Source of the DNA: Phycisphaeraceae bacterium
GTDB taxonomy: Bacteria; Planctomycetota; Phycisphaerae; Phycisphaerales; UBA1924
Direction: 5' to 3'
Assembly (NCBI GenBank): GCA_019636495.1
Contig: JAHBXL010000007.1
Location: 62,001 to 126,000 of the forward strand
Length of the DNA stretch: 64,000 nt
A model generated the notes under the pieces. That model made no database searches. It saw only the letters and a list, made by a program, of their open reading frames with translations, and was not told the origin of the DNA. The position numbers and the translations under genes were made by a program. Position 1 is the stretch's first letter; each line of letters begins with the position of its first letter. Positions 26,326 through 39,350 of this stretch are shown here, one piece after another.

Positions 26326-27528
26326 ATGGCAAAGGGCGTATTCGAGCGGACCAAGCCACACGTCAACGTGGGCACCATCGGGCACATTGACCACGGCAAG
26401 TCCACCTTGACCGCGGCCCTCTCGGCGCGCTCCGCCGCGAAGTACGGCGGCGCGATCAAGTCGTACGCCGAAATCACCAAGGGTGGTACGGTCCGCGACT
26501 CCAACAAGACCGTGACGATCCACTCGTCGCACACCGAGTACGAAACCGACAAGCGGCACTACGCCCACGTCGACTGCCCCGGCCACGCCGACTTCGTCAA
26601 GAACATGATCACCGGCGCCGCCCAGATGGACGGCGCCATCCTGGTCGTGTCCGCCGCCGACGGCCCCATGCCCCAGACACGCGAGCACGTCCTGCTCGCC
26701 CGCCAGGTCGGCGTCCCCTACATCGTCGTCTTCCTCAACAAGGTCGACCTCGTCGACGACCCCGAACTCCTCGAACTGGTCGAGGTCGAGGTCCGCGACC
26801 TGCTCAACAAGTACGGCTTCCCCGGCGACACCACGCCCATCATCCGCGGCCAGTCCAAGGCCGCGCTCGAAAACCCCAAGGACGACAAGATCTGCGAGCC
26901 GATCGACAAACTGTTCGAGGCGATCGACTCCTACATCCCCGAGCCCCAGCGCGAGACCGACAAGCCCTTCCTCGTCTCCGTCGAAGACGTCTTCTCGATC
27001 AAGGGCCGCGGCACCGTCGCCACCGGCCGTATCGAGCGCGGCGTCGTCAAGGTCGGTGACGCCGCTGAGATCGTCGGCCTCCGCAAGGAGAACAAGACGA
27101 CCACCGTCACCGGCGTCGAAATGTTCAACAAGACCCTCGACCAGGGTCAGGCCGGCGACAACGTCGGCGTGCTCCTCCGCGGCGTCGAGAAGGACGACAT
27201 CGAGCGCGGCCAGGTCATCTGCAAGCCCGGCTCCATCAAGCCGCACACCAAGTTCAAGGGTCAGATCTACGTCCTGACCAAGGAAGAGGGCGGCCGGCAC
27301 ACGCCGTTCTTCGCCGGCTACCGCCCGCAGTTCTACTTCCGCACCACCGACGTCACCGGCTCGCTCAAACTCCTCGGCGGCGCCGAAATGTGCATGCCCG
27401 GCGACAACGTCGAGATCGAGGTCGACCTGGTCGACAAGCCCGTCGCCATGGAGCCCGGCCTCCGCTTCGCCATCCGCGAGGGCGGACGCACCATCGGCTC
27501 CGGAACCGTCACCTCGATCATCGAGTGA
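26326..27528 (+). CDS. tuf: Elongation factor Tu
   Basis: This 400-residue translational GTPase carries aminoacyl-tRNA to the ribosome. The P-loop GHIDHGKST, the G3 DCPGHADF, the G4 NKVD and the typical second and third beta-barrel domains are all present; the end [15 protein letters not shown] is canonical. Length is standard (about 395-400). The gene is preceded by tRNA-Thr and followed, after a strong stem-loop, by rpmG. Codon use is strongly biased toward C-ending codons, as expected for a highly expressed gene. Confidence 0.98.
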
Positions 27529-27581
27529 CCGACCCGTCCGACATCTCGAGAATCGGAGGGGGCGTACGCATCACACAACCT

Positions 27582-27607
27582 GGCCCATCGGCGCGAGCCG
27601 GTGGGCC
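27582..27607 (+). terminator. Stem-loop between tuf and rpmG
   Basis: An 11-bp stem GGCCCATCGGC / GCCGGTGGGCC with one T-G pair encloses the tetraloop GCGA (GNRA type). It is followed by GGTTTGACG, with only a short T run, so it may partly terminate or attenuate transcription rather than end it, which would fit lower L33 and NusG levels than EF-Tu. Stem and loop are exact in the sequence; the role is inference. Confidence 0.55.
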
Positions 27608-27646
27608 GGTTTGACGAACAGACCGGCCTGAAACGAGGTAACAACA

Positions 27647-27832
27647 ATGGCAAAGAAGGGTAAAGCGCTCGCCCGCGAATACGTCTGGCTCCAGTGCTCC
27701 GAGTCCGGAGACATGAACTACCGCACCGAGATCAACGTCAAGGGCGGCATCGCCGAGAAACTCAAGGCCGGCTTCAAAAAGTACAGCCCGCGCCTCCGCA
27801 AGCACACGCTCCACAAGATCAAGCGAAAGTAA
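27647..27832 (+). CDS. rpmG: 50S ribosomal protein L33
   Basis: The 61-residue protein shows the L33 pattern: [20 protein letters not shown] and the conserved end [15 protein letters not shown]. The zinc-type CxxC is reduced to a single Cys (CSES), so it is a zinc-free form. GAGG lies 8 nt before the ATG. It is placed between tuf and tRNA-Trp/secE, the usual neighbours. Confidence 0.95.
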
Positions 27833-27892
27833 CCAGTCAATCCCGAGCCGAAGCCCGCCCGGATGCCCCGGGCCGGATTCCCGCTCCTTCGA

Positions 27893-27965
27893 ACGCCGGT
27901 AGCTCAACTGGTAGAGCAGCGGATTCCAAATCCGCAGGTTGCGGGTTCAAGTCCCTCCCGGCGTG
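27893..27965 (+). tRNA. tRNA-Trp (CCA)
   Basis: A 73-nt tRNA with acceptor ACGCCGG pairing with CCGGCGT and discriminator G. The D-arm begins GCTCAACTGGTAGAGC, the anticodon arm is GCGGA-TTCCAAA-TCCGC with anticodon CCA, and the T-loop TTCAAGT is standard; one T-stem pair is mismatched, as in many tRNA-Trp genes. CCA is not encoded. tRNA-Trp between rpmG and secE is a conserved bacterial order. Confidence 0.95.
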
Positions 27966-28007
27966 TTGTTCCGAGTCCTTGAACGTACCGATCACGGGAA
28001 CGATTCC

Positions 28008-28712
28008 ATGTCGCTGGGCATTTACAAGCAGGGCCAGGGCTACTGGGTCCGCGTCATGACCGCGGTCCTCCTCGCCGTCGCCACTCTCGGCGCCGCCGGA
28101 TGGGTCGCCAACCAGGTCTCCGTCTTCGAAACCCGCCTCCCCAGGAACTCCTGGCGCCTCACACTCGACAACGTCTCGGGAACCGTCAACCCCGGCGACC
28201 GCGTCGAACTCATCGGCAAGGCCGAAGTCTCCGGCGCGCCCGCGCCGATCCTCGGTACCGCCGAAGTCGTGTCCTACGCCCCCGCGCAGGAGGAACTCAT
28301 CCTCCGCCGCGTCGAAATGTCCGTCGCCGGTACCGGGCCCGATTCCTCGGTCCGCGTCGCTCACCCCGCCCGCTCCTTCGCCGCCGACTACCGCGTGCGA
28401 CCCGCCGGAATCCCGCTCATCGAGCCCAAACTGCTCATCGGCATCTCCGTCGGCGTCGTCCTGCTCCTGGGTTCCATGCTCGCGTACTACTTCGTCGGTG
28501 TCCGCCGCGGCAGCGTCGAGTTCCTCATCAACACCGACATGGAAATGAAGAAAGTCAACTGGTCCACCCCGCGAGAGGTCCGCGGATCGACCATCGTCGT
28601 CATCTGCGCCTGCTTCATCATCGCCACGTTCCTCTTCGGAATCGACCTCATGTTCCAGTGGTTCTTCCGCGTCATCGGCATCCTCGTCGACGTGCAGTCA
28701 ACCACCGTGTGA
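28008..28712 (+). CDS. secE: Preprotein translocase subunit SecE with long N-terminal extension
   Basis: The SecE core of the SecYEG channel occupies the last 65 residues or so: EFLINTDMEMKKVNWSTPRE, then the membrane helix TIVVICACFIIATFLFGIDL. In front of it lie about 165 extra residues: a first membrane helix (about 12-34, RVMTAVLLAVATLGAAGWVA), a beta-rich domain (about 38-140, VSGTVNPGDRVELIGKAEV) and a second helix (about 147-170). Most SecE proteins are 60-130 residues; here 234. ATG at 28008 (MSLGIYKQGQGYW) was chosen; upstream frames overlap tRNA-Trp. Position between tRNA-Trp and nusG confirms the identity. What the external domain does is unknown. Confidence 0.9.
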   Translation: MSLGIYKQGQGYWVRVMTAVLLAVATLGAAGWVANQVSVFETRLPRNSWRLTLDNVSGTVNPGDRVELIGKAEVSGAPAPILGTAEVVSYAPAQEELILRRVEMSVAGTGPDSSVRVAHPARSFAADYRVRPAGIPLIEPKLLIGISVGVVLLLGSMLAYYFVGVRRGSVEFLINTDMEMKKVNWSTPREVRGSTIVVICACFIIATFLFGIDLMFQWFFRVIGILVDVQSTTV

Positions 28713-28722
28713 GTCGCCGCGT

Positions 28723-28760
28723 GGGGTTCGGGGGGCGGGGGGGGAGGGGGGGGGAGGGAG
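28723..28760. other. G-run tract between secE and nusG
   Basis: Five closely spaced runs of 3-9 guanines sit on the coding strand in the 53-bp secE-nusG gap, interrupted only by single A, C or TTC. Four or more G-runs with 1-5 nt spacers meet the pattern of a G-quadruplex in the mRNA. The last part (GGGAGGGAG) is also the ribosome binding site of nusG. Confidence 0.6.
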
Positions 28761-28765
28761 TCGCC

Positions 28766-29410
28766 ATGTCGAACGAAACAACAGAGCAGACCGCCCCATC
28801 CGAGCAGCCGGTCAAGGCCGACATGATCTCCGGCGACGAGCCCATCCGCCGCGAAGGCATGGACTGGTTCACGCTGCGCGTCGCCTCCAACAAGGAGAAC
28901 TCGGTCCGCGAGACGCTCCTCCGCAAGGTGCAGATCGAGAAGATGACCCACCTCGTGGGCCGGATCCTCGTCCCCACCGAGAAGACCAAAACCATCAAGG
29001 GCGGCAAGCAGAAGATCGTCGAGACCAAGTTGTACCCCGGCTACGTCTTCGTCGAGATGCGCCTCGAACCCGATGGCCGAATCCCGCAGGACGTCTTCTT
29101 CCTCATCAAGGAAACCACCGGCGTGGGCGACTTCGTCGGCACCGCCGGCCGGCCCACCCCGCTCCGCGAGCACGAGATCGAGAAACTCCACGTCGACTCG
29201 CGCCGACCCGAGGAAGAGCCCGTCATCAAACTCGTCTTCCAGAAGGGCGAGCCCGTCACCATCAAGGAAGGCCCCTTCCAGGGCTACGAGGGAACAGTCG
29301 ACGAACTCGTCCCCGAGAAGGGCATCGTCCGCGTCCTCGTCACCATCTTCGGCCGCCAGGCCCCGATCGAAATCGAGGAGTGGCAACTCGCCAAGGCCGG
29401 GCAGGAATAG
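28766..29410 (+). CDS. nusG: Transcription termination/antitermination protein NusG
   Basis: The 214-residue transcription factor binds RNA polymerase and couples it to the ribosome or Rho. The NGN domain (about 32-150) starts DWFTLRVASNKENSVRETLL and contains YPGYVFVEM; a KOW domain follows (KGEPVTIKEGPFQGYEGTVD). An acidic/polar N-terminal leader of about 30 residues is added. ATG at 28766 has a strong GGGAGGGAG ribosome binding site inside a G-run tract. The usual next gene rplK is absent; a convergent glycosyltransferase follows. Confidence 0.96.
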   Translation: MSNETTEQTAPSEQPVKADMISGDEPIRREGMDWFTLRVASNKENSVRETLLRKVQIEKMTHLVGRILVPTEKTKTIKGGKQKIVETKLYPGYVFVEMRLEPDGRIPQDVFFLIKETTGVGDFVGTAGRPTPLREHEIEKLHVDSRRPEEEPVIKLVFQKGEPVTIKEGPFQGYEGTVDELVPEKGIVRVLVTIFGRQAPIEIEEWQLAKAGQE

Positions 29411-29437
29411 ACCCGCCCCACACCCGCACGCACCCCG

Positions 29438-29463
29438 CCGGCCGCTCCTCATCGGGCGGCCGG
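29438..29463 (+). terminator. Stem-loop downstream of nusG
   Basis: Perfect 8-bp GC stem CCGGCCGC / GCGGCCGG with a 10-nt loop, 28 bp after the nusG stop and followed by TTGGTCCTT. It ends the tuf-nusG unit and could also serve the convergent glycosyltransferase transcript. The T-tract is weak. Confidence 0.5.
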
Positions 29464-29483
29464 TTGGTCCTTGCAGCCGTCGA

Positions 29484-31130
29484 TCACGCCGCGCACGCGG
29501 GCTCCGGCCGCGACCCCGCATCGCTCGTCGCGTCCGCGGGCGAGAGCGGGTACACCGCGTGCACCCGCAGGCCCTGCCGCTCATACACCCCCCGCCGCTC
29601 CCAGATGCTCCGCTGGTGAATGTAACTTGAGATCACCACGTCGGTCGCGCCGTGCTCCGCCGCCGACTCCGGCGCGATCACCGGCCAGCCCAGCAGCCGC
29701 GAACCCCAGCGCTGCCGGTCATCGTCGCTCACCGCGACGATCTCCGCCCGCGAGTTGGCCAGCGCCGAAGCAAGTTCGATGGTGTGCCGACCCGCCCCGT
29801 GCAGCACGACCCGCCGGCCGGCGAGCCGCGCCAGCGCCGCGACCATCCGCCGCGCCCCCTCCGGGCCCACGCTCCCGGACATCCCAGGGCTCGTGCGCGA
29901 CGAACTGAACGCGCTCGGCCAGTCCGTCCGCCACCACCGCGCCGGACCCGCCGCCGCGTCATCGATCGCCCGCCCCGCACGCTCCACGTGCCGATCGATC
30001 GAAAAATGCTCCCGTGCCGCCCGCCACGCCGCCAGCGACATCGCGTCGCGGTCCATCGCCAGGAACCGCTCCAACCCCTCGGCCAAACTCGCGGCGGTCG
30101 CGGCCTCGTCATCCTCCGGCCGCGCGCCCACGAACACCGCGCTCTCACCATCGCACAGGCCGCTCGTCGCGCCGCTGTTCGCCGCCGTGATCACCGGCAC
30201 GCACCCCTGCGCCATCGCCTCGATCCGGCTGATGCACAGCCCCTCGAACCGCGATGCCAGCACAAACGCATCCGCCCCGCGCAACATCTCCCCGATCTGC
30301 GCGGCATCCGCCCTCGCGATGCGATGCACCCGCGGCCGCTTCGAGATCAGCCTGTCCACGTCCCCCTCCGCCGGCCCGCTCCCCACCAGCGTAATCCGAT
30401 GATCGATGCCCCGAGCGCCCAGTTCGTCGCTCAGCAGCGCCAAGGCGCCCACGCGCTTCTGCCGGTGCTCCATCCGACCCGTGTACACCAGCCGCAACGG
30501 CCGACCCGGCAGCGGCGGACGCGCCGCCGCGGGCGTTGCCGGCACCTCCACCCCGTGCGGGATCGTCTCGATGTCACCCTCCCGTCCCGGGAACATCGCG
30601 CCCAGCGAACGCACATACCGCTCATCAATCGCCACATACCGCGAGATCACCGGCTCATACCGACGCAGGATCGACGTGTCATACTCCGAGTCCGCGTGCT
30701 GCCACGCCAGCACCCGCAGCGTCTCCGCCTGCGTCGCGCACAGCGTGGCGAACAACCCGTACGAATCACCGAGAATGTTCGGCATCACGACCACCGGCCC
30801 CCCGCCCGGGCCATACGCCGCCCGCGCCAACCCCGAGATCGCGCGACGATACTCCGATACAAACGGCGACAGGTCCCCTTCCGCCTCCCCCATGTGCGGC
30901 CAGCCCGAGGGCTCGATCCGCCGGACCGCCGCGTGCAGCCGAATCTCCGCCGCGGGCTGGTCCGCCGCGCGCGGATGCACAATCAGCGCAACCCCCCGGC
31001 CACGCTCCGCCAGCCCGTTGGCCAGCCGTACCGCCCAACTCGTCACGCCGCCAAGGTCCAACCCATGGGGCAGACTGATCAACAGCGGCGCGAGCCGGCG
31101 GCCCTCGCCCTCTTCGCGGCACTCATCCAT
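29484..31130 (-). CDS. Family 4-type glycosyltransferase with C-terminal GAGRHT module
   Basis: The 548-residue protein is a GT-B retaining glycosyltransferase: N-terminal LISLPHGLDLGGVTSWAVRL, then the donor-binding half with RLVYTGRMEHRQKRVGALAL, FVLASRFEGLCISRIEAMAQ and the conserved Glu in EGL...EAMA. After about residue 435 a linker leads to a roughly 100-residue Rossmann-like module: RRVVLHGAGRHTIELASAL, EIVAVSDDD, LGWPVIAPES, TDVVISSY, ending LRVHAVYPL. The same module closes three neighbouring proteins of unlike catalytic type. ATG at 31130 lies just before the first strand; in-frame starts at 31235 and 31310 are less likely and no ribosome binding site decides. It is divergent from the next gene by 155 bp. 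Confidence 0.85.
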   Translation of the reverse strand: MDECREEGEGRRLAPLLISLPHGLDLGGVTSWAVRLANGLAERGRGVALIVHPRAADQPAAEIRLHAAVRRIEPSGWPHMGEAEGDLSPFVSEYRRAISGLARAAYGPGGGPVVVMPNILGDSYGLFATLCATQAETLRVLAWQHADSEYDTSILRRYEPVISRYVAIDERYVRSLGAMFPGREGDIETIPHGVEVPATPAAARPPLPGRPLRLVYTGRMEHRQKRVGALALLSDELGARGIDHRITLVGSGPAEGDVDRLISKRPRVHRIARADAAQIGEMLRGADAFVLASRFEGLCISRIEAMAQGCVPVITAANSGATSGLCDGESAVFVGARPEDDEAATAASLAEGLERFLAMDRDAMSLAAWRAAREHFSIDRHVERAGRAIDDAAAGPARWWRTDWPSAFSSSRTSPGMSGSVGPEGARRMVAALARLAGRRVVLHGAGRHTIELASALANSRAEIVAVSDDDRQRWGSRLLGWPVIAPESAAEHGATDVVISSYIHQRSIWERRGVYERQGLRVHAVYPLSPADATSDAGSRPEPACAA

Positions 31131-31285
31131 GCAGATTCGATCGGCCCGCGCAGGGCCTTCGGGCCCAGTTTTGGTGGTCGTCCGCCGCACGGGTCGATAA
31201 CCACTCCGAGGTTCCGGGGGAACGCGCGCCATCATGTCGCGCCCCGCGGCGGTGCGCGCCCGCCGGGACCGTTGCGGAGCAGTTC

Positions 31286-34123
31286 GTGCCCGGCGCACAG
31301 ATGCGGACATCTTCTCCCCCGCCCGTCGTCGCGCTGGTGCAATACGCCGCCGATGCGGATCACTTCTCCGGCGTCGACAGCGCGCTCGCCGCCCGCAGCA
31401 TCCGCCCGGTCCGTGTGAACGAGTGGGAACTGCCCGATCTCGACGCGCTCGCGCCCGGCGCCCTCGCCGTCAAGGACACGCAATCGCCCCTCGCCCTCGC
31501 CGCGCTGCGCTGGGCTCGCGCCCGCGATGTCCCCACGCTCCTGCTGATGGACGGCATCGTCGAGCACCGCAACACCTTCCACAACCCCGATGCGGGCGAC
31601 GCCTTCCTGCGCCCCGCGCCCGTCGATGTCGTCGCCTGCGCCGGCGAGACCGACCGCGCCAACCTCTGGTCATGGGGCAACTTCGCCATCGCCACCGGCC
31701 TGCCGCGCATCGAGGCCGCCTTCCCCGCGCCCCTCCCGCTCGATCGCCGCGGCCCGCTGCTGGTCGCCACCGCGAAAAGGCCCGCCTTCAACCCCGCCGA
31801 GCGCGACCGCCTCGCCGCCGCCCTCATCGCCCTGCGCGATGCCGCCGCCGACTCTCCCTGGCGCGGCCGCATCCTCTGGCGACTCACCGCCGGCCTCGAC
31901 GATGCCATCGGCGTCGCCAACACCCACGGCCCGCTGGCCGATGCGCTCCGCGCCTGCGCCGCCGCGGTCCTCACGCCGTCCACGCTCCTGCTCGAAGCCA
32001 TGGCCGCCGGGCGACCGTGCGCCATCCTCCACCCGCACGATGGCCCGCTCTGGCAGGATGCCATGACCGTCTGCCGCGATGCCGACCCGCGCTCGCTGCG
32101 CGCCGCGCTCACCACGCTCGCCGATCCCTCCGACGCCGATCGCGCACGCCAGGCCGCCGCGCACGCGCGGATGTCCGCCGCCGCCGTTGGCACGACCGCC
32201 GCCGACCGCGTCGCCGATGCGCTCGACCGCCTTCTCCGCGGCGAGATCGGCGCGGGGCCCGGCCGCCGGCGCGAGTTGCAGCCCGTCGCGCGCATCCCCG
32301 CGCCCCTGCCGCGCGGCCCGCGCGCCCGCGTCGTCTCCTGCGTCGCCTGCGAAGACACGCCCATCGGCGGCGTGATGACCTGGTCCCTCCGAATGGGCCG
32401 CGAGTTCGCAGCGCAGACCAATGACCCGCGATACGACTTCCGCACCCTCGTCATTGCCATGCAGCCCGGCGCCTGGCGCAGCGACGACTTCGACCCGATG
32501 GCCGATCCCCACACCCACCTCTGCGCCGTCGACCCCCTCGCCCCGCACCACGAACGCGTCGAGACCATCCGTCGCGCGCTCGAAGCCCTCGCGCCCGACA
32601 TCGTCCTGCCCAACTACAACGACGCCTGCTCCATGGCCGCGGCCCTGCTCCGGCCCCGCGGCGTCCGCACCATCGCCGTCGCACACTCCGACAACGACTC
32701 CTACCGCGATCTCGCTTCGACCTACGACACCTGGTCCGCCGGCGTCGGCGTGAGCCGGGCGTGCATGTCGTGGCTCGCCCCGATCGCCGCGCACAGGCCC
32801 ATCGCGCAGATCGTCTACGGCGTGCCCGTCGCCACCCATGACTCACCCCGCCCCGGCGCGGCCCATCCCGCCGCGCCCCTCCGACTGGCCTACATCGGGC
32901 GCATCGTCGAAGAGCAGAAACGCGTCGGCGACCTCATCGTCCTTCTGCAACATCTCGCACAGCGCCGCATCCCCTGCGAACTGCACCTCGTCGGCGACGG
33001 GCCCGACCTCCACGCCTGGCGCGCCAGACTCTCCACGGCCGATCTGCCCGGCATCGCCGTGCGAATCCACGGCCGACGCAGCCCCGCGTGGGTCGAGCGC
33101 TTCCTGCCCACCATCGATGCCTGCCTGCTCGTCAGCGCGTACGAGGGCACCAGCGTCGTCATGCTCGAAGCCATGGGCCGCGGCGTCGTCCCCGTCGTCA
33201 CCGCCGTGCGCTCGGGCGTCGCCGAGTGGGTGCGCGACGGCGAGAACGGCGTCATCGTGCCCATCGGCGCCATGGCCGACATGGCCGCGCGTATCGGCCG
33301 ACTGCACGCCGACCGCGCGCTCCTCGACCGTCTCGGCCGCGCCGCCTGGCAGACCATCCGCGACAGCGGCCTGAGCATCGCCGCCACCGCCGCGGCATAC
33401 GCGCGCACCTTCGATGCCGCGCTCGCCGCGCCCATCGACCCGCGACCCTCCGACACCGCGCTCCGCCCCGCCGACCTCTGGCGCTGGAACCTGGGCGGCC
33501 CCTCCCCACGCGCCGCCGAGGCCGATGCCTGGTGCGAGCACGCCCTGCGCGATGCCGGATTCACCCGCATCGCCCTCGACCACTGGCGCGACAACTGCGA
33601 CGCCGTCCTCGTCCGCTCCTCACGCAACGAGCCCGTCAGCGCGGAAGAGATCGCCGCGTGGCGCGCCCGCGGCGTCGGAATCGCCGTCTCGCCGCACCTC
33701 CGGCAGGACGGCCTCCCCGCCCGCGCCCTCGCCGCGGTCCGCGCGGCCATCACCGCCGGCGCGCAGCGCATCGCCGTCTACCCGCCCGGCCGACACACCC
33801 GCCGCATCGCCGCGATCTTCCGCCGCGAACTCTGGTCCGATTCGCCCGGCGGCTTCCCCTTCGTCGGCTTCCTCGACGACGACGCGCGGCCCGGCCGGCA
33901 GACCCTCGGCCTGCCCGTCGTGCCGCCGCGCCAGGCCCTCGACACGCTCCGCCCCGACACCGTGCTCCTCTCGACCGATGCGCACGAGGACGCGCTCTGG
34001 GCGCGCGCTGCGCCCCTGCGCGCTGCCGGCGTCAACGTCATCCGCCTCTACGGCCCCGGCCCCGTCCCGCCCGACGTCGAAGTGACCATGCAAGGAGCCG
34101 CCCATGCCCATGGCGCCCGTTGA
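31286..34123 (+). CDS. Double glycosyltransferase with C-terminal GAGRHT-like module
   Basis: This 945-residue protein joins two GT-B-like units. Residues about 1-320 are a degenerate glycosyltransferase (tail TPSTLLLEAMAAGRPCAILH). Residues about 345-700 are a GT4 unit with PIGGVMTWSLRMGREFA, LAYIGRIVEEQKRVGDLI and EGTSVVMLEAMGRGVVPVVT. After a 110-residue domain (about 720-830) the C-terminus carries the island's shared Rossmann-like module, but with the glycine loop as PPGRHT, then FVGFLDDDAR, LGLPVVPPRQ, DTVLLSTDAHEDA and NVIRLYG. The GTG at 31286 has GGAG 6 nt upstream; ATG at 31301 is the alternative. It overlaps the next gene by 20 bp, the first gene of a four-gene operon. Confidence 0.85.
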   Translation: MPGAQMRTSSPPPVVALVQYAADADHFSGVDSALAARSIRPVRVNEWELPDLDALAPGALAVKDTQSPLALAALRWARARDVPTLLLMDGIVEHRNTFHNPDAGDAFLRPAPVDVVACAGETDRANLWSWGNFAIATGLPRIEAAFPAPLPLDRRGPLLVATAKRPAFNPAERDRLAAALIALRDAAADSPWRGRILWRLTAGLDDAIGVANTHGPLADALRACAAAVLTPSTLLLEAMAAGRPCAILHPHDGPLWQDAMTVCRDADPRSLRAALTTLADPSDADRARQAAAHARMSAAAVGTTAADRVADALDRLLRGEIGAGPGRRRELQPVARIPAPLPRGPRARVVSCVACEDTPIGGVMTWSLRMGREFAAQTNDPRYDFRTLVIAMQPGAWRSDDFDPMADPHTHLCAVDPLAPHHERVETIRRALEALAPDIVLPNYNDACSMAAALLRPRGVRTIAVAHSDNDSYRDLASTYDTWSAGVGVSRACMSWLAPIAAHRPIAQIVYGVPVATHDSPRPGAAHPAAPLRLAYIGRIVEEQKRVGDLIVLLQHLAQRRIPCELHLVGDGPDLHAWRARLSTADLPGIAVRIHGRRSPAWVERFLPTIDACLLVSAYEGTSVVMLEAMGRGVVPVVTAVRSGVAEWVRDGENGVIVPIGAMADMAARIGRLHADRALLDRLGRAAWQTIRDSGLSIAATAAAYARTFDAALAAPIDPRPSDTALRPADLWRWNLGGPSPRAAEADAWCEHALRDAGFTRIALDHWRDNCDAVLVRSSRNEPVSAEEIAAWRARGVGIAVSPHLRQDGLPARALAAVRAAITAGAQRIAVYPPGRHTRRIAAIFRRELWSDSPGGFPFVGFLDDDARPGRQTLGLPVVPPRQALDTLRPDTVLLSTDAHEDALWARAAPLRAAGVNVIRLYGPGPVPPDVEVTMQGAAHAHGAR

Positions 34124-35246
34124 AGTGCTCGAAGCCGCGGGGCTCGATTCCTGCGCAGGACCCTCTCGCGGCATCGCGCTCGGCGCCGCGCTCGACCAGC
34201 GCCTGTTCCTGCACGCAATCGGCCCCATCTACGACGAGGTGAAGGACTTCAAGCGCACCCGCATGGCCTGGCCGCGCCTGGCCCAACTCGCCGCGCTGGC
34301 CCGCGCCGTCGTGCGACTCGGTATCCCCGGCGACTTCGCCGAGTTCGGTACCTGGCGCGGCGGCTCCCTCTACCTCGTCGCCGAGACCTGGCGACGACTG
34401 GAGCAGAATCGCGACCTGATCGCCTTCGACTCCTTCGCCGGCCTCCCGCCCACAGCCCCCCGCGACGGCGCGGCCCTGCACCAGGGCCAGTTCGCCGATG
34501 TCGATGTCAACGAGGTCCGCGCGTTCTTCGCCGCTCGCGGCCTGTCGCGCGTCCACCTCGTGCAGGGCTGGTTCCAGCAGACCATCAGCGCGCTCGACGG
34601 CCGAACGCTCGCGCTGGCGCACATCGATTGCGACACCTACGACAGCGCCATCGCCGTGCTCGCGCGCGCGTGGGATTCGCTCGCCCCCGGCGGCTTCCTC
34701 GTCGTCGACGACTACGCCCACCCCGACTGCCCCGGCGTCACCATCGCCGTCGAGGAGTTCTTCGCACGGCGCGACGAAATCGTCTGGCAGACGCCCATGC
34801 CCGAAAGCGCGACCGCGCCCGGCCTCAACTGCTCCTGCTGGATCCGCAAAGACGGCGGGCCCGATGCGGACCAGTCCTCGAACGCCGCCCGCGCGGCCCA
34901 CGACCCCGGATCGCTCCGATCACGCCTCGTCGAACTCACCGCGCAGGTCTGCGCCGCCCGTGGCCTCCGCCGAATCGCGCTCTACGGCGCGGGCCGACAC
35001 ACCGAGTCCATCCTCCCCGGCCCGTGGCCCGCGGCGGGAGTACAGGTCGTCGCCGTCCTCGACGACCACGCCGCCGCCAACCGACCCAGCATCGCCGGTG
35101 TGCCCATCGTCCGCCCGGAGGCCCTGCCCGTGCCCATCGACGCGGTCGTCGTCAGTTCCGACCGCTTCGAGGAAGCCATCGCGGCCCGTGCCGCGGCGGT
35201 GTTCGCCCCGCGCGGCGTGCCCGTCCTGAAGTTGTACGGTCGATGA
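34104..35246 (+). CDS. TylF/MycF-type O-methyltransferase with C-terminal GAGRHT module
   Basis: This 380-residue class I SAM-dependent methyltransferase is of the macrocin/mycinose (TylF) type that methylates sugar hydroxyls. SAM loop FAEFGTWRGGSLYL (about 74-87) and metal-binding acids HIDCDTYDSA and VVDDYAHPDCPG are present. Residues about 285-380 form the shared Rossmann-like module: RRIALYGAGRHTESILPG, VVAVLDDHAA, AGVPIVRPEALP, DAVVVSSDRFEEAI, PVLKLYGR. AAGGAG lies 6 nt before ATG 34104. Gene order with glycosyltransferases and a sulfotransferase points to late modification of a surface glycan. Confidence 0.9.
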   Translation: MPMAPVEVLEAAGLDSCAGPSRGIALGAALDQRLFLHAIGPIYDEVKDFKRTRMAWPRLAQLAALARAVVRLGIPGDFAEFGTWRGGSLYLVAETWRRLEQNRDLIAFDSFAGLPPTAPRDGAALHQGQFADVDVNEVRAFFAARGLSRVHLVQGWFQQTISALDGRTLALAHIDCDTYDSAIAVLARAWDSLAPGGFLVVDDYAHPDCPGVTIAVEEFFARRDEIVWQTPMPESATAPGLNCSCWIRKDGGPDADQSSNAARAAHDPGSLRSRLVELTAQVCAARGLRRIALYGAGRHTESILPGPWPAAGVQVVAVLDDHAAANRPSIAGVPIVRPEALPVPIDAVVVSSDRFEEAIAARAAAVFAPRGVPVLKLYGR

Positions 35247-36127
35247 AGATTCTCGGACCGCGCTCAACAAGCCCGGCCGGAGGTCCGATAGTGCATGGGG
35301 AATGGCGGGGGTTGGAGGTGCGTGTGATCCTGCCGCGAATGGACCTCTTGATCGCCGGAATGGGCCGCGCCGGCACGACCGCGCTGGCCAACCTGCTGAC
35401 GACTCCGCCCGACCGCTGGGTGCTCATCGAGCCCGGCCTGACGCGCGACGGCGTGGGCGACCACGTCTTCGAGCAGGCGCGCCGCTTCGGCCCGCCCGTG
35501 GCCGTGAGCGAGGCGCACTGGCGCGCCGGCGGGGACCGCGAGACCGGCCTTGAGCGCTTCGCGCGGACCATCGGGCCCGGCCTCTCGGCCCTGCGCGGCT
35601 GGGGCGTGAAAGAAGTCAACCCCACCGGCCTCGACGAGATCATCCGCGTCTTCGAGCCGCGCAAAGTGCTGCTGGCCGTGCGCGACATCCGCGATTGCGC
35701 CATCAGCGTGCTCGAAAAGTCGAGGCTGCACGCCGCGGAACGCAGGAGCGTGCAGAGCGATGAATGGCTGGCGCGTCGCTTGACCGATGCGGGCGCTGCG
35801 CTGGTGCGCCTGCGCTCGAGGCTGGATCCGGCGCGCGTGCGCACCGTGCAGTACGAGCGCTTCACCACCGATCCGCTGTACCGCGCCGCGCTCGAAGACT
35901 GGCTCAACTGGCCGCTGACGGGCGACCCCGGGCGGTGCATGGACCTGTTCGGCCGCGAGTACGAGGTCGCGCGGCACGCCGGCACGGTCACCGCGTCGAG
36001 CGTCGATCGGCGCGAGCGCGAGCAGTCGCCGGAGGCTCTGCGCTTCGCGGCGGGTGTCGAACGCGCCGCCGCGGCGTACCAGCAGGCGTTCGGCTACGCC
36101 CAGCACGCGGCGGAGGTCGCGGCATGA
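35243..36127 (+). CDS. Sulfotransferase family protein
   Basis: The 294-residue protein shows the PAPS-binding signatures of sulfotransferases: the 5'-phosphosulfate loop LIAGMGRAGTTALANLL (about 34-50, a P-loop variant with GRAGTT) and the 3'-phosphate motif AVRDIRDCAISVLEKSR in the middle. It would transfer sulfate to a carbohydrate or protein acceptor. The ATG overlaps the upstream stop as ATGA. It is the only enzyme of this operon without the GAGRHT module. Acceptor unknown; a sulfated glycan is the natural inference. Confidence 0.88.
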   Translation: MKILGPRSTSPAGGPIVHGEWRGLEVRVILPRMDLLIAGMGRAGTTALANLLTTPPDRWVLIEPGLTRDGVGDHVFEQARRFGPPVAVSEAHWRAGGDRETGLERFARTIGPGLSALRGWGVKEVNPTGLDEIIRVFEPRKVLLAVRDIRDCAISVLEKSRLHAAERRSVQSDEWLARRLTDAGAALVRLRSRLDPARVRTVQYERFTTDPLYRAALEDWLNWPLTGDPGRCMDLFGREYEVARHAGTVTASSVDRREREQSPEALRFAAGVERAAAAYQQAFGYAQHAAEVAA

Positions 36128-36152
36128 GCACCCGGCTTTTTCGGAGCGAATC

Positions 36153-37820
36153 ATGCGTTGTCTGATGGGGTTGAAGCACCGCGAGCGCCTCGTGTCATTC
36201 GTGCCGCCGGGCGGCCGGATGCTCGAATGGGGCGCGGGCGGCTCCACCGTGTGGCTTGCGCGAAACCTGCCCGAGGGTGCAACGCTGACGAGCATCGAGC
36301 ACGACCGCGAGTGGTTCTACGAGGTTGCCAACCATCTGGGCAACGGCGGGAGGGGCCCGCGCGACAACGTGCGCATGCTGCTGCGCGAGCCGACCGGCCC
36401 GCTCGGCGCCAACGCGACCGCCGCGGAGGATGACCCGACCAGCCTTCAGCCGTTCATCGATGGCGCCGATGGCGAGCGGTTCGACGTGATCCTGGTCGAT
36501 GGCTACGCGCGCGGCGCGTGCCTGGAGAGGGCCCGGTCGCTGCTCAACCCCGGCGGGGTCGTCGTGCTGCACGATGCGCAGCGCGAGTGGTACGACACCG
36601 GCAAGGCGCTCTTTGCGGCGCGCGGGCACATGGGCTCGTGCCCCGACTACCCCGGCCCGGAACTGTGGTGGGGCACCAACAGCGGCGATGTCGCCTTCCG
36701 CCCCGCGCGGGCCACGCTCAATCACGAGCAGATGCCCATCGTGCTGTGCTACTTCACCCTCGACACGCCCTACGCGGACGAGGCGAAGAAACTCAAGGCC
36801 TCGTGCCTGCGCCTGGGGCTCGAGCATCGCATCGTGGGCGTGCAGCCGCGAGGGTCGTGGGAGGCCAACTGCGCATACAAGGCGCGATTCGTGGAAGAGC
36901 AGTGGCGCGCCCTCGGCAGGCCCGTTCTGTGGGTCGATGCCGATGCGATCGTGCACCGCACGCCCGATCTCCTTCGCGGCGTCGCGGCGGACTTTGCCGT
37001 GCACCGCGCGCTGGGCTGGATGTTCGCCAGCGGCACCGTCTTCTTCAACCAGACTCCCGGGGCCGAGGCCCTGCTGGTGCGCTGGCGCGAACGCTGCGAG
37101 GCCGACCCCGGGACCTGGGACCAGGTACACCTCGATGCGGCGTGGGAAGATGTGGCGCGCGAGCAGCCGCTGGAGACGCTCTGGCTGCCGCGGGAGTACA
37201 CGTTCATCAACGATCTCGAGGATGTCGCGCTGACCGAAGATCCGGTGATCGAGCACACGCAGGCATCGCGCAGGTACAAGGCGACGGTGTCGGCCGCTGG
37301 GGGCGTGCCCGAGGCGCAGCCGGTGTACCCCGAGGATCTGATCGCGGCGCGGCGGGCCTCGCGGGCACGCGCTGCGGGCGCAGCCATCGCCGCGCCGACC
37401 GCCGCATCGCAGACGACGATGCGGCCGCGCGTGACCATGAAGCCCGAGGAACTCCCCGTGCGCATCAAGATCGCGATGGTCGATCGCCTCGCGCTGGAGT
37501 GCGTGCAGTGCGGCGTCCGGCGCATCGCGCTCTACGGCGCGGGTCGGCACACGCAGGAGGTCGCGCTGTGGCCGCTCAGGTCGCGCGGGATCGAGGTCGT
37601 CGCGATTCTCGATGATGCGCCGAAGATGCCGACGATCAACGACATCCCGGTCGTGCGACCCTCGGACCTTGATGAGATCGTGGACGCGGTGATCGTGTCC
37701 AGCGATTGGCGCGAGGAGCAGATCGCCGAGGCCGCTTCGGAGGTCTTCGGGCCGCGGGGCGTGCCGGTGCTGCGGATCTACCGGTGGGAGGCGCGCGGCG
37801 CGGCCGAAACCGGCCGATGA
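36153..37820 (+). CDS. Methyltransferase / GT-A glycosyltransferase fusion with GAGRHT module
   Basis: This 555-residue protein combines three units. First, a SAM methyltransferase-like domain (about 1-190): MLEWGAGGSTVWLARNLP, LTSIEHDREWFYEV, VILVDGYARG. Second, a GT-A-type domain (about 195-390): IVLCYFTLDTPYADEAKKL and the DxD-like metal site VLWVDADAIVHRTPDLL. Third, after an Ala/Arg linker, the shared module: RRIALYGAGRHTQEVALWPL, EVVAILDDAPK, NDIPVVRPSDL, DAVIVSSDWREEQI, PVLRIYRW. ATG 36153 has a GGAG ribosome binding site. An alternative ATG at 36124 opens a 13-codon frame that stops at 36165 and cannot encode this protein. Confidence 0.85.
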   Translation: MRCLMGLKHRERLVSFVPPGGRMLEWGAGGSTVWLARNLPEGATLTSIEHDREWFYEVANHLGNGGRGPRDNVRMLLREPTGPLGANATAAEDDPTSLQPFIDGADGERFDVILVDGYARGACLERARSLLNPGGVVVLHDAQREWYDTGKALFAARGHMGSCPDYPGPELWWGTNSGDVAFRPARATLNHEQMPIVLCYFTLDTPYADEAKKLKASCLRLGLEHRIVGVQPRGSWEANCAYKARFVEEQWRALGRPVLWVDADAIVHRTPDLLRGVAADFAVHRALGWMFASGTVFFNQTPGAEALLVRWRERCEADPGTWDQVHLDAAWEDVAREQPLETLWLPREYTFINDLEDVALTEDPVIEHTQASRRYKATVSAAGGVPEAQPVYPEDLIAARRASRARAAGAAIAAPTAASQTTMRPRVTMKPEELPVRIKIAMVDRLALECVQCGVRRIALYGAGRHTQEVALWPLRSRGIEVVAILDDAPKMPTINDIPVVRPSDLDEIVDAVIVSSDWREEQIAEAASEVFGPRGVPVLRIYRWEARGAAETGR

Positions 37821-37851
37821 CGCACAAAGTATAGTTGCTATACTTTCTGCG
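37821..37851. terminator. AT-rich palindrome between convergent genes
   Basis: The two arms CGCAcAAAGTATAG and CTATACTTTcTGCG flank a TTG loop; 13 of 14 positions pair, the exception being a C-C mismatch. The stem lies over the 17-bp gap and the stop codon of the convergent GT4 gene. It is unusually AT-rich for this genome. A bidirectional terminator is the simplest reading, although no T-run follows on either strand. Confidence 0.55.
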
Positions 37852-39031
37852 TCGCAGCCGCCGCGGCCGCTTCGTGCACGCGCCAGAAGTGCGAAAACGA
37901 CCCGGCGATGCTCATCGGCAGGATCTTGGCGCGCCCCGCCGCGCCCATGCGCGAACGCAGAGAATCGTCGATCGCGAGCATCGCGATGGTCTCCGCCCAG
38001 CGCGCTTCGGCGGCGCGGGTCGCGGGCAGCACGAAGCCCGTCGAGCCGTCGTCGACGACTTCGCTCGGTCCGCCCTGGTCGGTCACGATCACCGGCAGCC
38101 CAGCGCACTGCGACTCCATGACCACCTGACCGAGCGTGTCGGTGGTCGAGGGGAAGATGAACAGGTCGCTGCCCGCGTAGATGGTCGCCAGTTCGCGCCC
38201 GTGACGGAACCCGAGGAAGACGGCGTCGTGCGGGGCGAGTTCGGCCATCATCCGCTCGCGGTACGGGCCATCGCCCACGACCAGCAACTGCGCATCGACT
38301 CCCGCGCGGGCGCACGCAGCGCGGGCCGCGGGCCATGCGCGGGCGAGCATCGGCAGGTTCTTCTCGATGCTCACGCGCCCGACGTACAGCGCCTTGATGC
38401 TGCGCTCGCGCACGCCGAGCGATGCAAGCGATCTCCAGAGCGCGGGGGCTTCAACCCGCATCGCCGAGTCGAACGCGGCCGTGTCGATCCCGGGCTGCAG
38501 CCGCACGATCCGCTCGCTCCGAATGCCGATGCGCTGCATTCCCGCGGCGTACTCCATCGAGCGCGTGAACACCCGCGCGAACGGGCGGTAGAACCACCTC
38601 ATGTGAGCGCTGCACAGCCAGGTGAACACGGGGTCGTCGAACAGATGGTCGATGTACGCCGGGAAATCGGTGTGGTAGGTGCCGATCAGCGGCAGGCCGT
38701 GCCGCACCGCGAAGCGCCGGCCCAGCGTGCCGACGGGACCGGGCGTCGAGACGTGCACGATGTCGGGCGCGAGCCGCGCGGCGAGTTGCAGCGTGGGGCC
38801 GCGCCTGGGCAGGGCGAGTTCGAGTTGCGGATAGCCGGGCATCGGCCGCGCATGGAGCGGCGGCACGTTGTGGATGAACGCGCGCTCGCCATCCGGCGGC
38901 GCGGGCAGGCGGGTGCTGGTGATGATGTGCAGTTCGTATCCCGCCGCGGCGGCCTGGTCGCCGACATTGCGGATGAAGCGCGAGACGCCGTTGACGTCGT
39001 TGAGCGTGTCGGTGAAAAGGACCAGGCGCAT
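37838..39031 (-). CDS. Family 4 glycosyltransferase
   Basis: The 397-residue GT-B glycosyltransferase opens RLVLFTDTLNDVNGVSRFIR, the N-terminal pattern of lipid-linked sugar and mannosyltransferases (MgtA/PimB-like). The donor half has KALYVGRVSIEKNLPMLARA, DLFIFPSTTDTLGQVVMESQ and GLPVIVTDQGGPSEVV with the conserved Glu. It has no GAGRHT module. ATG at 39031 directly begins the first beta strand; the longer frame up to 39223 overlaps a stem-loop leader. It is convergent with the methyltransferase fusion and divergent from coaD. A role in envelope glycolipid or glycan assembly is inferred. Confidence 0.92.
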   Translation of the reverse strand: MRLVLFTDTLNDVNGVSRFIRNVGDQAAAAGYELHIITSTRLPAPPDGERAFIHNVPPLHARPMPGYPQLELALPRRGPTLQLAARLAPDIVHVSTPGPVGTLGRRFAVRHGLPLIGTYHTDFPAYIDHLFDDPVFTWLCSAHMRWFYRPFARVFTRSMEYAAGMQRIGIRSERIVRLQPGIDTAAFDSAMRVEAPALWRSLASLGVRERSIKALYVGRVSIEKNLPMLARAWPAARAACARAGVDAQLLVVGDGPYRERMMAELAPHDAVFLGFRHGRELATIYAGSDLFIFPSTTDTLGQVVMESQCAGLPVIVTDQGGPSEVVDDGSTGFVLPATRAAEARWAETIAMLAIDDSLRSRMGAAGRAKILPMSIAGSFSHFWRVHEAAAAAATQKV

Positions 39032-39120
39032 CGGTCGGCAGCGTACCCGCGTTTCGCGCCGGCCGCGGGGCGAGGGGCAGGGCAGCGCGTGCCGATTCAC
39101 CAAGCCTTGACACAAAGCGA

Positions 39121-39160
39121 AAGGGCCCGCACCGGGGAGGCAAGCCGGTACGGGCCTTTC
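39121..39160. other. Strong stem-loop in the glycosyltransferase / coaD divergent gap
   Basis: Arms AAAGGGCCCGCACCGG and CCGGTACGGGCCTTT pair along about 14 bp with one mismatch around a 9-nt loop. The shape is that of a rho-independent terminator, but no gene ends here: GT4 (leftward) starts at 39031 and coaD (rightward) at 39351. It could attenuate the GT4 leader or end a small transcript. The rest of the 319-bp gap holds nothing I recognise. Confidence 0.5.
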
Positions 39161-39350
39161 ACAGAACAACGAGCCGTGTCGAGCGTCGCGGGTGCGGAGG
39201 GCGATCCGCCGCGGCCATGACAAAGATGCAATTGAGCGGGTGTCGGGGCCAAGGGGGAAGGCCGCGGGGGCGTGTTGGGCCGTGGGCGGCGCGGTTTATC
39301 CGGGTTGTGCAGCGCGGGGTGAGGATTCCCGGACGTACACTGACGGGCTC

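Follow-up and report, generated by a model that had tools for sequence, protein, structure and literature searches.

A shared C-terminal Rossmann-like module on four neighbouring glycan enzymes of a Phycisphaeraceae bacterium, and its relatives across the Phycisphaerae

Three Rossmann-like domains of bacterial glycan enzymes are the closest described relatives of the element reported here, a module of roughly 100 residues (GAGRHT...DD...PV..P...SS...Y) at the C-termini of four neighbouring genes in a 64,000-nucleotide stretch of a Phycisphaeraceae genome (the window; contig JAHBXL010000007.1). CoA_binding_3 (PF13727), known as the domain of unknown function (DUF) of WbaP and as the N-terminal domain of CapD/PglF-like dehydratases, is an accessory domain on glycan enzymes like the module, and its CapD-type form has a DDDP..G...G.PV stretch in common with it. 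However, in the proteins examined it links a membrane bundle to the phosphoglycosyl transferase or dehydratase, whereas the GAGRHT module is shorter, soluble-looking and attached to other enzyme classes. PglD_N (PF17836), from the NeuD/PglD sugar acetyltransferases, shares the GAGxH loop and the acidic end of strand 2 with the module, members of which reach 20-25 bits against it; PglD_N, however, precedes a left-handed beta-helix acetyltransferase and supplies the uridine diphosphate (UDP) site of that enzyme, whereas the GAGRHT module comes without such a helix. Methyltransf_14 (PF08484; TcaB9/KijD1) is, like the module, fused to methyltransferases, but it has a GA..KG loop and a PWNF..EI motif where the module has GAGRHT and SSD.HE, and the partners of the module are far more varied.

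In the window the module ends a GT4-type glycosyltransferase (GT; open reading frame (ORF) 29484-31310, minus strand; module 29532..29849), a 945-residue glycosyltransferase (ORF 31286-34123, plus strand; module 33734..34051), a TylF-type protein (ORF 34104-35246, plus strand; module 34938..35237) and a methyltransferase fusion protein (ORF 36054-37820, plus strand; module 37488..37799), with profile matches of E 1.7e-43, 7e-41, 1.3e-44 and 2.8e-48, respectively. A first-pass annotation of the window had read a common ending of this length in the four proteins, and both the profile search and the alignment (A1) bear this out: 16 columns are invariant, including GRHT, DD, P, D.V..S and Y, with PPGRHT replacing GAGRHT in the second tail. 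Two of the finer motifs that it had proposed hold in part only. The element G(V/I/L/W)PV(V/I)xP is present except in the fourth tail, which reads DIPVVRP, and the PVxxLYG-like ending is a tendency, the GT4 tail having AVYPL and the fusion tail RIYRW. Searching the whole 4.08-Mb genome with a profile from the four tails returned exactly four places (E 2.8e-48 to 7e-41) and no fifth copy up to E = 10. The likeness of the tails is not due to chance and the module is real, because the same profile also detects it, in fused form, in dozens of further genomes of the Phycisphaerae.

None of the four tails reaches the curated cut-off of any Pfam or NCBIfam model. The best PglD_N score is 19.7 bits against a cut-off of 23.4, which two module relatives in the 81 genomes searched narrowly pass (25.4 bits in G052 and 23.5 bits in G003:C4); CoA_binding_3 matches the third tail at 12.8 bits against a cut-off of 25 and the other three not at all; PF08484 matches no tail, and the best module relative reaches 21.7 bits against 23.5. 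Plain membership of these families was therefore rejected for the window tails, yet at the level of sequence the kinship is clear. We compared the module by profile-profile alignment (hhalign) with alignments of the known families drawn from the same bacterial class (A4, PglD_N; A5, PF08484; A6, CoA_binding_3). CoA_binding_3 was the closest of the three (E 2.7e-12), followed by PglD_N (E 2.5e-10, 61 columns aligned) and PF08484 (E 2.2e-9), the last over 99 columns, which is the whole module, in the C-terminal half of PF08484 proteins. The likeness to the NeuD/PglD N-terminal domain and to PF08484 suggested earlier was thus recovered, with CoA_binding_3 closer still. Profile matches in the PDB were likewise to glycan proteins, namely 3nkl (E 2.7e-7) and perosamine N-acetyltransferase (1e-3), with Rex at 0.01. 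The N-terminal part of the FkbM methyltransferase structure 2py6 also gave a match of 66 positions to the module profile (E 0.0055); this single weak match, with no GAGRHT shown, hints that similar domain fusions may occur elsewhere.

An AlphaFold2 model of the fusion-protein module, built from an alignment of 25 sequences (A2), gave a predicted local distance difference test (pLDDT) of 93.6 and a predicted template modelling score (pTM) of 0.87. It consists of an N-terminal helix followed by strands and helices in Rossmann-like order, so that the Rossmann nucleotide-binding pattern first seen in the letters is supported by a fold predicted with high confidence. A single-sequence model of the TylF-protein module has the same order of strands and helices, with pLDDT of about 70-87 over the module only; the full-length model of that protein was poor (pLDDT 47.5) and cannot show where the module lies with respect to the active site. 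The best Foldseek match was the cryo-EM structure of WbaP (8t53), followed by 2g6t, Rex and 3nkl, with KijD1 and TcaB9 further down. The module has both the fold and the significant profile similarity by which the superfamily was judged, and its placement as a separate branch of the Rossmann-like glycan-enzyme domains (PglD_N / CoA_binding_3 / PF08484 C-terminal part) is well supported by sequence comparison and by the model.

Mapped on this predicted fold, conservation of the module concentrates at the rim of the ligand pocket, with an information content of 2.33 bits at the C-terminal ends of the strands versus 0.94 bits in the helices. PglD-family enzymes bind UDP through two adjacent Asp residues, which contact uracil and ribose, and the backbone amide at His15 of PglD; the UDP contacts of PglD are Ser13, His15, Asp35 and Asp36, and Ser13 touches both the ribose and the alpha-phosphate (PMC8040287). 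Among 109 module sequences the DD pair is kept in 99% and 97%, and the His equivalent to PglD His15 in 87%. The DUF construct of WbaP is stabilised by uridine mono-, di- and triphosphate (UMP, UDP and UTP), and UMP inhibits full-length WbaP with a half-maximal inhibitory concentration of 4.1 uM, a type of control that its authors call 'one-size-fits-all' (PMC10942596). By analogy we infer a uridine-nucleotide ligand and a regulatory role: the tail may be an accessory domain that binds uridine nucleotides or UDP-sugars and works like the WbaP DUF, a tentative reading for which we put the chances at close to balanced. The putative ligand, UMP, UDP or a UDP-sugar, would lie in a pocket to which GAGRHT, the DD pair, the SS(D) stretch and the last Tyr contribute; the tail would be a non-catalytic ligand-binding and oligomerising unit, as is the equivalent WbaP domain, and would tune its enzyme to the current nucleotide or nucleotide-sugar pool.

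Several points weigh against this uridine-nucleotide reading. The module has Gly where PglD has Ser13, followed directly by Arg, which means that the phosphate must be contacted differently than in PglD. Methyl- and sulfotransferases have no obvious need to sense uridine nucleotides, and the evidence that WbaP itself is regulated comes from a single in vitro study and from genetics of a homologue. At 0.5-0.6 the Foldseek TM-scores (template modelling scores) are modest, with proteins that bind nicotinamide adenine dinucleotide (NAD(H)), namely Rex and dehydrogenases, ranking close. A role of the module in sensing redox state through NAD(P)(H), or as a cofactor domain like those of Rex and dehydrogenases, is nevertheless very improbable in our view: those Foldseek matches speak for it at the level of fold only, the profiles favour glycan-pathway domains first (3nkl 2.7e-7 versus Rex 0.01), and the DD pair is unlike the single Asp that is the dinucleotide-binding pattern of Rossmann folds.

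We then searched 298 Phycisphaerae genomes by profile. The module was matched in 128 genomes at E <= 0.001 and in 53 at about E <= 1e-9; only the strong matches were counted, since weak ones take in PglD_N and CapD-type domains. The window and the fetched Phycisphaerae stretches yielded 113 module-bearing ORFs with 109 distinct modules, and no convincingly stand-alone module was found among these ORFs. A scan of 84,980 species genomes with one single peptide pattern gave 15 confirmed loci, all in Planctomycetota and mostly in Phycisphaerae, although a single-pattern scan does not prove absence from other phyla. In other planctomycete classes strong matches are rare and their motifs altered. 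Three proteins from such classes (L121, L123 and L130, the first and last GT2-like by eye) have a related C-terminal Rossmann-like tail, which differs from the module in its loop (GLGRHG, GAGRTT and GAGTAG) and in having a single acidic residue instead of DD; three further proteins of ~250 residues (L119, L120 and L122) carry a related C-terminal module in which GAAETG or GCAETG replaces GAGRHT. An origin in a mobile or phage element was rejected, as phages gave no match, viral contigs no confirmed relative, and plasmids only partial matches, mostly to the N-terminal domain of Rhizobium dehydratases.

The position of the module among the 109 is mostly C-terminal (82), with 19 N-terminal and 8 internal cases. 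Its phylogeny tracks the partner enzyme and not the locus: partner families map onto the module tree with 24 changes against a shuffled mean of 63 (minimum 58), whereas loci require 47 changes against a mean of 50.9 (minimum 46). Only this broad contrast was used, because the tree was built from few columns and many of its forks are open. The fusions are therefore old, and modules within a locus did not arise by recent copying from one another; recent duplication or gene conversion of the tail within a locus was accordingly rejected. The PPGRHT tail clusters with those of further large GT proteins (98% by the Shimodaira-Hasegawa-like approximate likelihood ratio test, SH-aLRT). In two partner families (clusters 9 and 11) the module is N-terminal in one member and C-terminal in another, and sequence thus argues for independent fusions. 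The first-pass annotation had taken the repeat in one locus to imply one dedicated system. That claim is weakened: a module that is class-wide, found at either end and tied to partner instead of locus is better described as an old, re-used accessory domain than as a handle that belongs to this island alone. The same placement bears on another reading, in which the module holds a sugar, linked to a nucleotide or to a carrier, in place for the active site of its enzyme, in the manner of the C-terminal part of sugar C-methyltransferases. We think this improbable. PF08484 does match the module over its whole length, KijD1 and TcaB9 are among the structural matches and methyltransferases are numerous among the partners, but the occurrence at either end of one catalytic family, and on GT-B enzymes with a donor site of their own, argues that module and active site have no fixed geometry.

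Modules also lie close together. In the 32 genomes with at least two strong modules, 42 of 79 are less than 10 kb from another, versus 0.74 expected under uniform placement, and adjacent module genes of unlike class run to four consecutive genes in one locus (L082) and three in another (L060). Since genes that serve one pathway cluster in any case, this closeness shows that the modules share a pathway and not that they interact physically. Proximity of unlike classes far above chance would nevertheless suit a docking or scaffold handle, in which modules on different enzymes pair as homo- or hetero-oligomers and gather the glycan enzymes on a common carrier. Most dimer contacts of WbaP come from its DUF (PMC10942596), and the partners have in common an acceptor glycan, not a donor (nucleoside diphosphate (NDP)-sugar, S-adenosylmethionine or 3'-phosphoadenosine-5'-phosphosulfate). 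On the other hand, conservation lies on the pocket rim and not in the helices, modules of the same locus are no more alike than by chance, so that no locus-specific pairing code is visible, and 21 of 53 module-bearing genomes (about 40%) have a single strong copy. On balance we regard a docking handle as unlikely.

The partners confirm that one tail sits on unrelated glycan enzymes, as had been proposed for the window. By Pfam they include GT4, GT2, FkbM, TylF, Methyltransf_11/24/25 and Sulfotransfer_3, and further a polysaccharide deacetylase plus Capsule_synth and, weakly, a GDSL-type esterase. A 1417-residue giant (L065) joins GT4, module, GT2 and hexapeptide parts and is the sole member with a hexapeptide match, which lies far downstream of the module; in the Pfam scan none of the four window proteins matched Hexapep. 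By eye, additional partners are a polytopic GT-C-like membrane protein (L091) and a GT-A-like family of 11. The latter (e.g. L082:9805-10971 (-), L060:9472-10674 (-) and L010:640-1785 (+)) contains GGDDMLPDP in its first ~270 residues, had no Pfam match in the members scanned and looks like an undescribed GT-A family. The membrane-protein-like family (L091, L095, L097, L100, L103 and L106) ends in a GAGRFT/GAGQFT form of the module, and two scanned members had no Pfam match. One protein (L010:1260-3242 (+)) has two tandem modules, a divergent GAGEFT form at residues 448-539 and a second at 561-651. Within the class, the immediate neighbours of module genes are rich in GT2/GT4, methyltransferases, NDP-sugar epimerases/dehydratases and DegT aminotransferases, and this gene content points to glycan synthesis, probably of the cell surface, as the setting. 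Other Phycisphaerae show a comparable arrangement, with one Rossmann-like domain recurring on successive genes: a full PF08484 C-methyltransferase stands beside two genes of ~400 residues, each with a partial PF08484-type domain (G008:C1:13273-16149, G022:C35:113662-116635, G056:C1:3150641-3153587, G070:C54:143712-146651, G076:C102:5355-8205 and G017:C165:15395-18325).

With the same module on glycosyl-, methyl- and sulfotransferases within a single pathway, a uridine-nucleotide-binding tail could let one signal throttle glycan assembly and decoration together. The only Bac_transf (WbaP-type) gene of this genome (G000:C4) has CoA_binding_3 beside its catalytic domain, so initiation and later steps could be under related domains. 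The wider proposal, a uridine-sensing, pairing module on many surface-glycan steps (chain growth, methylation, sulfation and deacetylation) that forms mixed ligand-gated complexes or gives a joint response to one signal, seems to us rather doubtful.

The catalytic parts of the window proteins were assigned by Pfam. The GT4 region of ORF 29484-31310 spans 30084..31052 on the minus strand (Glyco_trans_1_4, E 3.4e-14; Glycos_transf_1, 1e-12); this ORF is probably over-extended, with the true start at Met61 (about 31130), because relatives and orthologues align only from residue ~70. ORF 31286-34123 had been called a double GT-B protein, for which the second half stands (32348..33421, plus strand; Glyco_trans_1_4, E 3.1e-25), while the first (31286-32330, plus strand) is unmatched in Pfam and resembles GT-B only on inspection by eye. 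The divergent, overlapping pair of GT4 plus tail and large GT plus tail is kept in two loci (L053 and L057) within the taxonomic family of the window. The TylF domain lies at 34272..34769 on the plus strand (E 1.1e-32). As for the methyltransferase/GT-A fusion, the methyltransferase part is a Methyltransf_24 match (36222..36575, plus strand, E 4.1e-7), whereas the GT-A-like region (37005..37211, plus strand) is a weak Nucleotid_trans match (E 0.011) at 16.1 bits, below the cut-off of 22. Two island genes have no module: a sulfotransferase (35264..36127, plus strand; Sulfotransfer_3, E 5.4e-10), with an orthologue 88.6% identical in L005, and a GT4 glycosyltransferase (37838..39223, minus strand; Glyco_trans_1_4, E 1e-27). 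Elsewhere a sulfotransferase does have the module (L063:7589-8914 (+)), unlike that of the window. The island begins directly after the EF-Tu / SecE / NusG genes (window 26326-29484). The gene for ribosomal protein L11 is the usual next neighbour of nusG; here it sits on a different contig (C23:46883), and the nusG-rplK operon is therefore split in this genome.

The finding is real and well beyond chance, and represents a little-noticed expansion of a recognisable kind of domain. Bacterial glycan pathways share scarce nucleotide sugars and lipid carrier, and one regulatory Rossmann-like domain has already been found, on the initiating enzyme WbaP. The wider proposal would extend that single-enzyme control to a whole glycan pathway, and a homologous, uncurated module on many enzyme classes of one bacterial class would make pathway-wide allosteric control or ligand-gated enzyme assembly directly testable. 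The module would also serve as a marker for glycan loci in poorly annotated planctomycetes.

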